A stretch of DNA of 64,000 nucleotides. Source: an uncultured Bacteroidales bacterium (GTDB lineage: Bacteria > Bacteroidota > Bacteroidia > Bacteroidales > UBA932). Positions 1,981 through 63,569 of this stretch are shown here, one piece after another (positions within the stretch are counted from its first letter, which is position 1; each line of letters opens with the position of its first letter). The stretch covers positions 45,731-109,730 of the forward strand of contig CALYTI010000003.1 in assembly GCA_945487035.1 (NCBI GenBank), in the 5' to 3' direction. The translations under genes and the position numbers were made by a program. The notes beneath the pieces were generated by a model, which saw only the letters and a program-made list of their open reading frames with translations, did not search any database and was not told the DNA's origin.

Positions 1981-4900
1981 ATGAAACCAATCCGAAACAT
2001 TATTGCTGCGGCTGCTTTTCTGGTGCTATGCCAGGTGGCCGGCGCAACTATTCCGGTGAAGGGGCGTGTTGTGGACAGCAACGGCGATCCGCTTCCCGGA
2101 GTATTCGTTCTTGAAGAAGGCGTTGCTTCCAACGGAGTGATGACCGACGACAACGGCAATTACTCAATTCAGGTAACAGACCAAAACTCCGTACTGCTCT
2201 TTTCCCAGCTCGGCTTCAAGGAACTCAGGGAGCCGGTCGGCGCACGCAAGGTCTTCAATGTGACACTCAAAGACGATACGACCCTTCTGGAGGAAGTGGT
2301 GGTCGTAGGTTACGGAGTGCAGAAGAAGGGCAGCATTACAGGCTCCATAGCCTCCATCAACAATGAAACCCTGACGGCCGCGCCTACGGACAATGTCTCC
2401 AATATGCTGGGAGGCAAGCTCCCGGGCCTTGTGTCCCGCCAGACCAGCGGACTCCCGGGAGAGAATGACGCCCAGGTCTATATCCGAGGCATCAGCACCA
2501 CCGGCAACAGTTCTCCTCTGGTACTCGTGGACGGAGTGGAAAGGGACTTCTCGAATCTCGACCCTTCCGAAATCGCTGACATTACCATTCTCAAGGATGC
2601 GGCTTCCGCTGCGGTCTATGGAGTGAAAGGTGCAAACGGAGTAATTCTCGTCACCACCAGGCGCGGCGATGTGGCCAGCACCCGCGTGACCTACAACGGA
2701 GCCCTTACCATCAGCAGCAATGCCGATATGATAGAGCTTCTCGACGGCCCGGGCTACGCCTACTGGCACAACCTTGCCACCGACCTGGACGGGATAGCCA
2801 GGGACTACTCCGACACCCAGATAGAATACATCAGGAACGGCAACGACCCTCAGGGCATACTCGGCAATACCGATTACCTCGACCTTATCTTCAAAAAGGC
2901 TGCAATAGGGCACAACCACAATGTCAGCGTCTCCGGAGGAAGCAAGAATGTACGCTACTTCGTAGGCGGAAGCTATCTTAACCAGGACGGTATCATAGAC
3001 AATGTCTGGTTCAGGCGCTACAACCTTCGCTCCAACATTGACATCAACCTCACCGACGACCTCACCCTCAAGGTGGATGTCTCCGGCCGTATTGAGGACA
3101 GGCACCAGCCCGGCGTGAGTGCAGGCTCCAGCGACCCTACCGCCTCGCTCGACAACGGAGGCAAGGAAATGGGCTATAAGAATATCATATTCTACGCCAT
3201 TTCCGCCCGCCCTACCACCAGGGCGCAGATGCCGGACGGGACCTATATAGGCTATCAGAATCCTCTCATTGCCCGCGACGAGTCCGGATTCCAGGAAAAG
3301 AACAACTCCTATGTGCAGACAGGCGTCACCCTGCAGTACAATGTGCCTTTCGTGAAGGGACTGAGCGTCAAGCTTATGGGCAGCTACGACTTCCAGAACA
3401 CCCTGTCCAAGAAACTGCTGCTGCCCTGCAGCCAGGTGACTCCGCAGTACAGCAGCGCCTCCGGCCCTCTCACCCTTACTCCGGGCAACAGCCCGCATCT
3501 TGCATCGGGAGTCAACCAGCTCACCGAAGCCCATACCCTCTTCTCCCGCTACACCTTCACGGCCCAGATGAACTACGCCCGCACTTTCGGTGTTCACGAA
3601 GTGGGAGGCGACCTCGTTTGGGAGCAGAGCGGCACGGCCGGGAGGTATTTCACTGCATCCAAGCAGAATTTCCCCATTACGGAAATACCGGACCTCAACT
3701 TCTCCACCGATGTGGTTCCCAACTCCGTGCAGGGTTACCACTCCCACTCCGGACGTCAGGGTCTGCTGCTCAGAGGCAACTACACCTATGATTCCCGCTA
3801 CATAGTATCCGCATCGCTGCGCGGCGACTGGTCTGCCAAGTTCGCGCCCGAGCACAGGCTCGGTGTGTTCCCGGCCGTATCGCTGGGATGGAGACTTTCG
3901 CAGGAAGAGTTTATGGAAAGCACCAGGGATGTGGTTGACAACCTCAAGCTGCGTGCATCCTGGGGAGTGCTCGGCAACGATGCCATATCCGATTTCCTTT
4001 ATGTGCAGGGCATAGGCCTCAGTTCCAAACCTATTGTGGTAATAGGCGGAAAGCCTGTCCAGGGCCTCTATACCACCTCGGTTCCGAATGCGGACATTAC
4101 CTGGGAAACGACTACCACCTGGAATGCTGGTGCTGACGCAAGCCTTTGGAACGGCCTTCTCAGCATTGAGGGAGACGCTTTCTACAAGCTCACCACAGGC
4201 ATCCTTCAGTCTCAGGCCGGCCAGAATCCACCTTCAATAGGTTCCAACTTCTCCGCCATAGTCAACAGCGGAGTGGTGGATGTGCGCGGTTTTGAGCTTA
4301 CCGTAGGCCACAGCAACAGAGTGGGGGAACTGGAGTATCACCTCAGTGCCAACACCTCCTTTGCGCGCAACCGCTACATCAGCATCAACGATTCCGACAA
4401 CATCCCGTCCTACCAGTCCAAGCTCGGCCAGCCTCTCGGCTCAGTGCTGGGCTATGTCTCCGACGGCCTGTACAGGGACGAGGAAGACCTCGCACGCTCT
4501 CCGAAGACCGGAAGCAATGTGCGTGTGGGAGACATCAAATACAAAGACCTCAACGGTGACGGCAAAATCACCGCCGACGACCGCACCTGGATTGCGGGCT
4601 CCCAGATTCCGGAGATAATGTACGGGCTCAACCTCGATTTCAAATGGAAGGGCTTCGACCTGATGATGTTCTTCCAGGGGGCGGCCAACACCGAGATTAT
4701 GCTTTGCGGCACCTACTCAGCCCTCGGTTTCTCGGACGGAACCTACTACACCCAGGCATTCAAATGGGGCAGCAATCCGCCTAAGTACCTTGTGGAGGGC
4801 AGTTGGACTCCGGACCATACCGATGCGCAGTATCCGCGCCTCAGCACCCAGACCAGCTCCAACAATGTCCTTCCGAGCGATTTCTGGGCAAGGGACGCCA

Positions 4901-60473: not shown

Positions 60474-61229
60474 ATGGACAACAATATACTTCTGGAAATC
60501 AAGGACCTGCACGCAGGTGTCGAAGGCAAGGAGATACTTCACGGCGTGAATCTTACCATCCGCCGCGGAGAAGTTCACGCGGTGATGGGCCCGAACGGAG
60601 CTGGCAAATCCACACTCAGTGCCGTGCTTGCGGGCAAGCCTCAGTTCACAGTCACTTCCGGCAGCATCACTTTTGCCGGACAGGATTTGCTTGCGATGTC
60701 TCCTGAGGAGCGCAGCTGGGCCGGCATTTTCCTGAGTTTCCAGTATCCTATAGAGATACCGGGAGTGAGCATTACCAATTTTATGAAGGCGGCAGTGGCT
60801 GCCCGCCGTAAGGCCGCCGGACTTCCCGAGCTCAGCCCTGCGGAGTTCCTGAAATTGTTGAAATCCAAGATGGCCCTGGTGCAGATGCGCGGGGAGTTTG
60901 CAAAGCGCGAGGTGAATGTGGGCTTCTCCGGAGGAGAGAAGAAGAGGGCGGAGATTTTCCAGATGGCTATGCTGGAGCCTGTACTGTCGATTCTCGACGA
61001 GACTGACAGCGGTCTGGATGTGGATGCGCTCAAGATTGTGGCTGACGGCGTGAATGCGCTGCGCACCCCGCAGACTTCGTCCATTATCATTACCCATTAC
61101 CACAAGCTCCTGCAGTACATAGTGCCGGATGTGGTGCACGTGCTCAAGAACGGTGAGATTGTGCGTACGGCAGGCCGCGAACTTGTGGATTTGATTGAAT
61201 CGGAAGGATTTGAGAATATCAATGGATAG
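60474..61229 (+). CDS. sufC: Fe-S cluster assembly ATPase SufC
   Basis: A 251-residue ABC-type ATPase. Walker A is GPNGAGKST, the signature is NVGFSGGEKKRAEIFQ, Walker B is LSILDETDSGLDVDAL, and the switch histidine lies in IITHYHKLL. The start at 60474 opens the domain directly; the longer frame runs inside pnuC. It overlaps sufD by 8 nt. Confidence 0.96.
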   Translation: MDNNILLEIKDLHAGVEGKEILHGVNLTIRRGEVHAVMGPNGAGKSTLSAVLAGKPQFTVTSGSITFAGQDLLAMSPEERSWAGIFLSFQYPIEIPGVSITNFMKAAVAARRKAAGLPELSPAEFLKLLKSKMALVQMRGEFAKREVNVGFSGGEKKRAEIFQMAMLEPVLSILDETDSGLDVDALKIVADGVNALRTPQTSSIIITHYHKLLQYIVPDVVHVLKNGEIVRTAGRELVDLIESEGFENING

Positions 61230-61782
61230 GAAGGTCTATACAGTCGGAAAGGACCCGGTGCCTGGGAAACTTACACTTGGCGCAGGGGAGAGCTTCTTTG
61301 CCACTTTTGTGGTGGAGGAGGGAGTCAGCGCCGATGTGACTATGGAGGTGGACCTGGTAGGAGAGGGCGCTTCGCTGGATTTGGCGGGGGTTTACCGCTG
61401 CAGTGCCGACGAGAGGGTGGCTTTCCATCTGAATGTGAGGCATTTGTGCGGGGGATGCACTTCCCGTCAGCTTTTCAAGGGCATAGTGGGGGGCCGCTCC
61501 CGTGTGGTTTTTGACGGCCTGATTCACGTTGCTCCGGATGCCCAGAAGACCGAAGCCTATCAGGAGAACCATTCGATTCTGCTTTCCGGTGAGGCCCAGG
61601 TGCAGACTTCTCCGCAATTGGAAATATATGCCGATGATGTGGTTTGCTCCCACGGTGCGACCATAGGCTCGCTCAGCGAGGATGAGCTTTTCTATATGCG
61701 CTCGCGCGGCATCCCCGAGGCCGAAGCCCGTCAGATGCAAATCCAGTCTTTCCTTTCCCCGGTGCTCGGCAGACTCGGATAG
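61222..61782 (+). CDS. sufD: SufD-like protein, half length
   Basis: A 186-residue SufBD-family protein. Only the C-terminal beta-helix core is present; usual SufD is about 430-450 residues. The conserved end is intact, with SPQLEIYADDVVCSHGATIG containing the histidine important in E. coli SufD, and LFYMRSRGIPEAEARQM. The start at 61222 overlaps sufC, and no upstream sequence could encode the missing half, so the short form appears genuine rather than a frameshift. SufS and SufE are not in the window. Confidence 0.88.
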   Translation: MDRKVYTVGKDPVPGKLTLGAGESFFATFVVEEGVSADVTMEVDLVGEGASLDLAGVYRCSADERVAFHLNVRHLCGGCTSRQLFKGIVGGRSRVVFDGLIHVAPDAQKTEAYQENHSILLSGEAQVQTSPQLEIYADDVVCSHGATIGSLSEDELFYMRSRGIPEAEARQMQIQSFLSPVLGRLG

Positions 61783-61808
61783 TATTCGGAATTGATTTGG
61801 AAATAATG

Positions 61809-61816
61809 TATTTTTG
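61809..61816 (+). promoter_or_regulatory. -7 box of SPFH gene
   Basis: TATTTTTG matches TAnnTTTG, 33 nt before the start at 61850. Confidence 0.55.
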
Positions 61817-61849
61817 TTTCGGTATGAATATACTCAACACAAAAATACT

Positions 61850-62949
61850 ATGAGACAAAAATCAATCAGGATGGCTTTGGCTGTAGCCCTTGCCATCGCA
61901 GCAGTGTCAAGCTGCACCACTGTGGATTCGGCTTCGGTCGGAATCCGTTTCAGGAAATGGTCCTCCAACGAGAACCTCAGGGGAGGAGTAGAGGGTACCT
62001 GCCGCGGCTGGGTGTGGTACAATCCCATTACCGAAAGCATTTTCCAGTATCCTACTTTCATCCAGCGAGTTACCTATGAACCGTTTACTGTCAACCCTAA
62101 GGATGCGGCGATTTTCTCTATGACTCCGACTCTGGCATACCAGATTGACGAGGCGAAAGCTGCTGATATTTTTATCAAGTACCGCAAACCTGTTCGGGAG
62201 CTGGAGATGGGCTATATCAAGACTTGCATTTTCGAAGCATATCGCACCTGCGCCAACAACTACACCTCAGATGAACTGATGGCCAACCGTGCAAAGTTCG
62301 AGGCTGAGGTCAGGGCGCGTCTGGACGAATCGATGAATCAGGAAGGCTTCATTGTGCGTGAGTTCACCACCAAAATCGACCCTCCTGCATCCCTCACCGC
62401 CGCCATCAACGCCAAAAACGAGGCTAAACGTATGGTCTGCTAAGAAGAAATTCTTAGTATCAATCCCTTTAATTTCTGGAAACTCCGGTCCTGCAACTGC
62501 CGGACAATCAGAAGCCAATCACTTAGGTGAAGGTTCAACGACTATCTCGAAAGAGAGTACACTGCAAGCTAATGGCGGTGGAAATGGGGGACCCTTAGCG
62601 GGTAATGCCGAAGGTGAAGATATAGTCTGATCTATATAGCAATATATAGCAGCCCGTTGGGCGCGTGTGAAGTTGCGAATCACACGGAACAGTAAAGGTA
62701 CAAAATGCACTTAAGGCGGAGAATAAGGTGAAGGAAGCTGAGGCTGAGGCGAAGATTGAGATTGCCAAGGCCGAAGGTGTTGCAAAGGCACTTAAAATCA
62801 AGGGTGACGGAGAAGCCTACTACAATAAGGTGGTATCCGCCTCTCTCAACAGGTTGCTGGTAGAGCAGTATGCCATCGAAAAGTGGGATGGCAAGCTCCC
62901 GACATATTCTGGAGGTGATGCAGTGCCGTTCATCTCACTCTCCAAGTAA
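61850..62949 (+). CDS. SPFH/Band 7 (prohibitin-like) lipoprotein, split by an intron
   Basis: Exon 1 is 61850-62425 (192 codons) and exon 2 is 62698-62949 (83 codons plus stop). Joined, they give a 275-residue protein. The signal peptide ends AVSSC, so it is a predicted lipoprotein. Band 7 runs from about residue 25 (VGIRFRKW) to the PPASLTAAINAKNEA stretch, then an Ala/Glu/Lys coiled coil (VQNALKAENKVKEAEAEAK) and a short tail, as in stomatin and prohibitin relatives. Such proteins form ring-like membrane scaffolds. The break falls within the most conserved stretch, between NEA and VQN. Without splicing, translation reads 6 codons into the intron and stops at 62441, giving 198 residues without the coiled coil. 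Confidence 0.88.
62426..62697 (+). ncRNA. group I self-splicing intron, 272 nt
   Basis: Exon 1 ends in T and the intron ends in G, as group I requires. P1: AGGCT (62421-62425) with GGTCT (62434-62438), a T-G wobble at the splice site. P2: 62440-62446/62451-62457, GAAA loop. P3: 62464-62470/62550-62556, one mismatch. P4: 62474-62478/62509-62513. P5: 62484-62488/62500-62504. P6: 62514-62516/62532-62534, with P6a 62519-62522/62527-62530. P7: GACTAT (62540-62545) with ATAGTC (62622-62627), in the R and S blocks GTTCAACGACTAT and AAGATATAGTC. P8: 62561-62565/62575-62579, then a hairpin at 62591-62603. P9: 62632-62638/62643-62649, GCAA loop. P9.1: 62652-62655/62659-62662. P9.2: 62664-62670/62680-62686. 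P10: 62430-62433 with exon 2 GTAC. No endonuclease ORF. Confidence 0.93.
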
Positions 62950-63113: not shown

Positions 63114-63569
63114 TTACTTGCAGCACTCTGATTTTGCTTCGCAAGACTCTTTCTTCTTGCAGCACTCTGACTTTGTTTCGCAAGACTCTTTCTTCTTGCA
63201 GCACTCTGACTTTGTTTCGCAAGACTCTTTCTTCTTGCAGCACTCAGACTTGTCGCAATCAGCTTTCTCTTTGCAGCACTCAGACTTAGCTTCACAGGCT
63301 TTCTCCTTGCAGCATCCGGACTCTGCTTTGCAATCAGCCTTCTTCTTGCAGCACTCAGACTTTGCTTCACAAGCTTTCTCCTTGCAGCAGCTTACCGTGT
63401 CACAAGCTGCTTTTTCTTTGCAGCACTCAGACTTTGCTTCACAGGCTTTCTCCTTGCAGCACTCTACCTTTTCTTCGTTGGCGTTGGTTTTTTTCTGGCA
63501 ACAGTTCTTGCAAGATACTGCACCGAACATCATCAATGCTGCTGACAAAAACAATACAACCTTCTTCAT
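63114..63569 (-). CDS. cysteine-rich repeat lipoprotein (metallothionein-like)
   Basis: A 151-residue protein with signal peptide and lipobox GAVSC (Cys20). The mature part is nearly all Cys, Lys, Glu, Ala and Ser: about 32 cysteines in 151 residues. They occur as CC pairs followed at 5-6 residues by a single Cys, in the form ECCKxKxxC, repeated about ten times. The last three full units are 13 residues long (39 bp) and nearly identical. No aromatic residues are seen in the repeats. It looks like a metal- or thiol-binding surface protein; the family is not recognised. Confidence 0.8.
   Translation of the reverse strand: MKKVVLFLSAALMMFGAVSCKNCCQKKTNANEEKVECCKEKACEAKSECCKEKAACDTVSCCKEKACEAKSECCKKKADCKAESGCCKEKACEAKSECCKEKADCDKSECCKKKESCETKSECCKKKESCETKSECCKKKESCEAKSECCK
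63117..63245 (-). repeat. 39-bp coding tandem repeats
   Basis: Successive TTGCAGCACTC landmarks at 63118, 63157 and 63196 are 39 bp apart, and a fourth follows at 63235. They encode ECCKKKESCETKS with few changes. More diverged 33-36 bp units continue upstream in the gene. Confidence 0.85.

Follow-up and report, generated by a model that had tools for sequence, protein, structure and literature searches.

The window, i.e., the whole analysed stretch of 64,000 nt from an uncultured Bacteroidales bacterium, carries on its forward strand an SPFH/Band 7 gene that is interrupted by an insert. The 5' exon (61850..62425, +) encodes SPFH residues 1-192 and ends with GAGGCT, and the 3' exon (62698..62949, +) encodes residues 193-275 plus the stop codon. 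Both were delimited via their open reading frames, the PF01145 match and an alignment with the intron-less relative L056. Once joined, they encode a 275-aa protein that matches PF01145 (Band_7) with 76.6 bits, which agrees with the original prediction of an intron in an SPFH/Band 7 gene; its assignment to a Bacteroidota host is borne out as well. The gene is split in phase 0, as had been proposed, between codons 192 and 193. When read without splicing, the 5' exon runs on as NEA-KRMVC and then reaches an in-frame TAA (62441..62443, +).

The insert at 62426..62697 (+; 272 nt) is a genuine group I intron. Its limits follow base-exactly from the L056 alignment (62426-62697, 272 bp) and are those given in the original prediction, which had also suggested a covariance search. 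Respective matching with RF00028 yields 84 bits at 62416-62649 (E 1.2e-21) versus a gathering score of 50. It is the sole match above the cut-off within its 1.94 Mb genome, where three further matches stay below it (10-13.7 bits). The 3' boundary reads CAGTAAAG|GTACAAAAT, with the intron's terminal G at 62697 (+). Together with this G, we find the U.G pair at the 5' splice site and the guanosine-site helix P7 that characterize group I introns, and an exact removal of the insert restores the Band_7 gene. The ORF list holds no endonuclease ORF within 62426-62697, i.e., the window copy is by itself no homing intron, and 272 nt leave too little room for the transposase gene of an IStron.

The helices P1 to P10 expected for such an intron can indeed be drawn. 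We drew P1, P2, P4, P5, P7, P7.1, P7.2, P8, P9, P9.1, P9.2 and P10 by hand and counted their pairs in three introns, namely that of the window and the two related ones from a second genome (G088) and a phage discussed below; P3 was taken from the RF00028 alignment only. In window coordinates (all +), P1 (62420..62439) pairs the exon's GAGGCT (62420-62425) with the guide GGTCTG (62434-62439) by 5/6 pairs including the splice-site U.G, and P10 pairs GTAT (62430-62433) with GTAC of the 3' exon (62698-62701; 4/4). P2 (62440..62457) comprises 7 pairs and a GAAA loop. The core (62464..62591) holds the P3 strands (near 62464-62470 and 62585-62591), P4 (62473-62478 with 62509-62514), P5 (62484-62488 with 62500-62504) and a short P6 region (62514-62534) located by comparison with G088, in which an ORF starts at this place. 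P7 is formed by GACTAT (62540-62545) and ATAGTC (62622-62627) and, as drawn, has one base in common with P7.1 (62545-62556), which is followed by P7.2 (62560-62580) and P8 (62593-62614). P9 (62632-62649) is closed by a GCAA loop, such that the predicted GNRA loops on P2 and P9 are present along with the U.G wobble, and P9.1 (62652-62662) and P9.2 (62664-62686) complete the fold.

The mismatches counted in the three introns comprise one in P2 and one in P5 of G088 as well as one in P1 of both host introns. The phage P9.2 pairs fully (6/6). Where checked, pairing is kept despite base changes in P2, P5, P7.2, P8, P9.1 and P9.2, e.g., the inner pairs of P8 read CGG/CCG, CAG/CUG and CAA/UUG; this comparison covers three sequences, which are few, with pairs counted by hand rather than by a covariation statistic. 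In all three drawings, P7.1 and P7.2 are located between the 5' P7 and the 3' P3 strands, which is the arrangement of subgroup IA, and we take the window intron to be IA2. That these two helices help to define group I intron classes is stated in the accessible part of a 2014 review (PMC3984707).

Next, we studied whether the site is occupied in relatives. An alignment of orthologs, also suggested with the original prediction, finds the insert missing and the junction uninterrupted in 90/90 relatives, 86 of which read AKNEA|VQNALKAENKVK. This set comprises 80 loci kept from 121 found by scanning genome contigs with the joined protein, plus 10 further ones. The nearest relative, L056 (CAKMNE010000123.1; genome G079; 97% aa identity), is a congeneric MAG from an uncultured Bacteroidales; it aligns with 61001-62425 (82.7%) and 62698-62948 (88.4%) and is contiguous at its positions 3310/3311. 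Both host introns (window and G088) are preceded by GAGGCT and followed by GTACA, a combination found in 0/90 empty sites. Since the two motifs occur singly in 14/90 and 12/90 empty sites, about 2 sites with both are expected by chance, and we therefore give no weight to their joint absence.

Within the genus, the SPFH gene is patchy (27/121 genomes, E <= 1e-20). A single match crosses the junction in 24 of these genomes, one (G561) has the gene broken over two contigs, and two carry it split by an intron, namely the window genome (G000) and G088. Within the order, an SPFH match was obtained for 35/393 genomes (E <= 1e-15) and is split in the window genome only. A blastn search with the window intron matched 4 of 400 genus genomes (window genome, G088, G988, G974). 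The relatives in G988 (L265 1501-1622) and G974 (L266 1501-1635) lie, by eye, between phage-like frames that resemble a DNA polymerase and a terminase. Among 395 genomes of the phylum, 56 were matched at E up to 0.1; the rows shown beyond the window's own are pieces of 18-41 bp that we read as chance. The plasmid search matched 24 records, none of which covers 80% of the window intron in one place. RF00028 matched 4/393 genomes of the order: the window genome, two (G766, G756) with introns that ARAGORN places in tRNA-Ile and tRNA-Leu genes, and G638, whose match we rejected as false (27.7 bits, below the cut-off, inside an open coding frame).

The second occupied site, that of G088, lies at exactly the same base as in the window, with an intron of 847 nt (L227:2047-2893). 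The two SPFH proteins agree in 157/192 (5') and 71/82 (3') residues, and the introns outside the ORF in 83/91 and 143/165 aligned positions, the 5' count being one base short. The neighbours of the SPFH gene differ, i.e., suf-like genes are found upstream in the window and other neighbours in L227. The G088 ORF (L227:2145-2822; 225 aa) starts in the P6 region and continues into the core. Its PHROGs matches are to endonuclease families only (endonuclease VII, 4.2e-21; HNH endonuclease, 4.1e-19), and no Pfam match is found up to E 0.1. Because the ORF stretches the intron, RF00028 scores it with 38, i.e., below the gathering score. The window copy has a short P6 region without an ORF of this type. 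Among named phages, the best relatives of the G088 ORF come from the crAss-like cr53_1 (43.8% over 70%, flanked by a DNA polymerase ORF on either side) and cr50_1 (46.2% over 58%).

A scan of IMG/VR with a 30-base pattern of the intron core gave 49 contigs. The best three of these by blastn (L169, L172, L179; 84% over 127 positions) do not differ from each other in the 1,000 bases that surround the core. Here, the intron (L179:2900-3791) contains a relative of the G088 ORF and is flanked by the halves of a phage SPFH gene (VNAKNEA | IQRAQQAQNEV), i.e., it interrupts the same codon as in the window. Among 24 viral SPFH loci, four stop at residue 191 (the three contigs and 3300035510_000060) and the other 20 continue; a search with the 5'-boundary pattern returned the same four contigs only. 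The phage SPFH protein is 72-75% identical to those of PhiCrAssBcn1-3, cr85_1 and cr106_1, and a downstream gene of 396 aa shares 67.7% identity with a gene of cr116_1. PhiCrAssBcn1 shows a matching gene order in this region, where the annotation lists its SPFH relative as hypothetical. For a neighbouring phage protein of 610 aa, the phage collection yielded no match. Judged by its genes, the phage carrying the SPFH intron is crAss-like. An SPFH relative (E <= 1e-5) is present in 640 phage records, which include crAss-like and Lak phages.

The comparison of host and phage contrasts the two layers of the locus. For window and phage, SPFH residues are identical at 65/189 (5' exon) and 31/71 (3' exon) positions and codon-aligned bases at 261/567 and 110/213, while the introns outside the ORF agree at 73/91 and 131/161 aligned positions. 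That is, the proteins are 34-44% identical and the introns about 80%, and it is therefore likely that a related intron moved laterally between phage and host. Intron identity alone is no proof of transfer, since cores are alike in unrelated phages too; e.g., an Enterocloster phage intron matches the window with 77% over 54% of the intron. The case is strengthened by the shared codon, the near-identical guide region GTAYGGTCT and the endonuclease, whose G088 and phage versions share 48.9% identity over 223 aa, N-terminal part included. We compared this N-terminal part among the related endonuclease loci plus cr53_1 and cr50_1; an alignment to the G088 ORF that begins at residues 3-5 was obtained for L272 and the four phage SPFH loci only. 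In a 20-row tree of hand-picked rows, the SPFH-site endonucleases form a clade with 97/98.

A different history would leave the intron real and spliced but make the host and phage copies separate insertions at a conserved site, or remnants of an old vertical inheritance with many losses. The wide likeness of group I cores is in line with this (some match to the window intron is present in 789 phage records), as is the membership of the window genome and G088 in one genus. Furthermore, the clade of SPFH-site endonucleases is missing from the free search of a 56-row tree, which neither supports nor rejects it (p-AU 0.508). We nevertheless consider such a history unlikely: it would have to account for one codon and a near-identical guide being used in host and phage, for endonucleases that are alike over 223 residues with an N-terminal start common to only five compared loci, and for an intron that is missing in the nearer relative L056, whereas G088 has one.

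We favour, with a probability of roughly 80%, a reading in which the window intron is predicted to be self-splicing, such that the full 275-aa SPFH protein would be made, and in which it lacks an endonuclease but likely descends from a homing intron that also occurs in SPFH genes of crAss-like phages. Splicing would proceed in two steps, started by guanosine and guided by P1 and P10; on unspliced RNA, ribosomes would stop at the TAA at 62441. The HNH protein of a complete copy would have cut SPFH alleles without an intron at their conserved AKNEA/VQ codons, and repair of the cut allele would have copied the intron in. The window lineage would have lost the endonuclease ORF later. Phage and host SPFH DNA are alike just upstream of the site (G088 vs. 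phage 16/18 bases, window vs. phage 14/18), and infection would therefore bring donor and recipient alleles together, with transfer possible in either direction.

To evaluate whether the interrupted gene still behaves like a functional one, we assigned codon changes to the window lineage using seven outgroups and excluded 27 ambiguous changed codons. We count 26 synonymous and 2 nonsynonymous changes in the 5' exon, while all 11 changes in the 3' exon are synonymous; part of the substitutions counted in the two exons may be older than the intron. Mostly synonymous changes are unexpected for a broken gene; thus, the window intron is likely spliced and the SPFH function retained. If the intron no longer spliced, the SPFH gene would be a pseudogene in the window lineage, as one might suspect from the in-frame stop and the lacking endonuclease. 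Given an intact core of 84 bits and a reading frame beyond that stop with synonymous changes only, we regard this as very improbable. An assembly artefact that joined phage intron sequence into a bacterial gene is hardly credible, since, despite a draft genome (60 contigs, 89.9% complete) and the commonness of such introns in phages, the insert is base-exact and pairs with its own exons, the intron recurs at the same site in G088, and a 73-aa protein cluster (38 members) begins at the residue where an unspliced window 3' exon would be called.

Group I introns have seldom been reported from protein genes of bacterial chromosomes. The accessible sections of the 2014 review name the Bacillus genes recA and nrdE, the flagellin gene in thermophilic Bacillus and cyanobacterial nrdE, and describe the introns of Bacillus recA, nrdE and nrdF as resembling phage introns (PMC3984707). 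As far as these sections describe them, the window shares with the Bacillus and cyanobacterial cases an intron of the self-splicing type within a protein gene of the chromosome, an in-frame stop after the 5' exon and the likeness to phage introns described for Bacillus, but differs in its Bacteroidales host and its SPFH gene (PMC3984707). It also differs from what is available on them in that one genus has endonuclease-bearing, endonuclease-less and empty alleles, and in that a phage gene is split at the same codon. With this constellation, homing between phage and host into a chromosomal gene can be tested directly; for movement among bacterial species, the same sections of the review see little evidence of horizontal transfer of bacterial introns (PMC3984707).

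CrAss-like phages carry group I introns with endonucleases, for which the accessible text of two reports names MCP, PolB, primase and ATP_43b as host genes, with SPFH not among them (PMC7886860, PMC10136315). The HNH-type ORFs of cr53_1 and cr50_1 are related to the one in the G088 intron; unlike the crAss-like introns in the text of these reports, the phage intron studied here has an SPFH gene as its host, which the bacterium has too (PMC7886860, PMC10136315). A literature search over titles and abstract openings, mostly outside the subscription literature, found no report of a group I intron in an SPFH gene. What appears new is the SPFH insertion site, which is unusual and common to phage and host; the kind of element is already known.

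We also compared the window intron with others of its genus. RF00028 applied to 150 relatives matched 32 further genomes (E <= 0.001), all of the same genus. All 29 introns examined (L005-L033) are located in tRNA genes, for which ARAGORN reports 25 tRNA-Leu UAA and 4 called tRNA-Ser AGA; the remaining three matches are the SPFH intron of G088 and those in G015 and G069. These tRNA introns belong to the same RNA superfamily as the window intron, and some carry a long insert. They differ from it in scoring 40-62 bits and, as far as read, in having no insert after the 5' P7 strand, where the window holds P7.1 and P7.2; presumably, they are of subgroup IC3. Several have ORF-like inserts of HNH look.

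Finally, we investigated how widely the SPFH site may have been invaded. The present case also illustrates how intron-split genes get mistaken for two ORFs. Three protein searches, two of which contributed 120 of 142 and 120 of 1140 matches, yielded 163 distinct proteins, and the junction motif was recognised in 134 of them. Among these 134 from the matches listed, native residues precede the junction in 95. In 26, it is immediately preceded by a lone start residue (M in 25, L in 1), at a position that in intact SPFH genes is usually Ala. The other 13 show a non-native-looking tail that ends exactly at the junction (P0066 and P0114 being doubtful). That is, non-native residues end exactly at the junction in 39/134 proteins from the matches listed (two doubtful), a share favoured by two of the queries that begin near the junction. 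P0004 nearly equals what the end of the G088 intron encodes in a different frame, and the phage intron ends with ATG, which would likewise give M|IQ. Relatives of P0133, one of the fragments, gave 37 loci in viral contigs, with 34 intact at the junction and 3 distant ones unjudged; in 84 genomes of the class, they comprise the window genome and one weak match only, with no new split case.

These fragments, most of which are known from protein alone, hint at a wider invasion of the site. We are evenly divided on a broader reading, in which the AKNEA/VQ codons would be a homing hub across Bacteroidota, with crAss-like phages keeping an HNH-armed SPFH intron that infection shuttles repeatedly between phage and host. 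Many host introns would then go unseen because gene callers break the SPFH gene in two.

Beyond the SPFH gene, we note a 151-aa ORF at 63114-63569 (-) of the window, for which Pfam gave no match up to E 0.1. It shows many CCKEK/ECCK repeats after a signal-like start and might, as a guess, encode a metal-binding lipoprotein.
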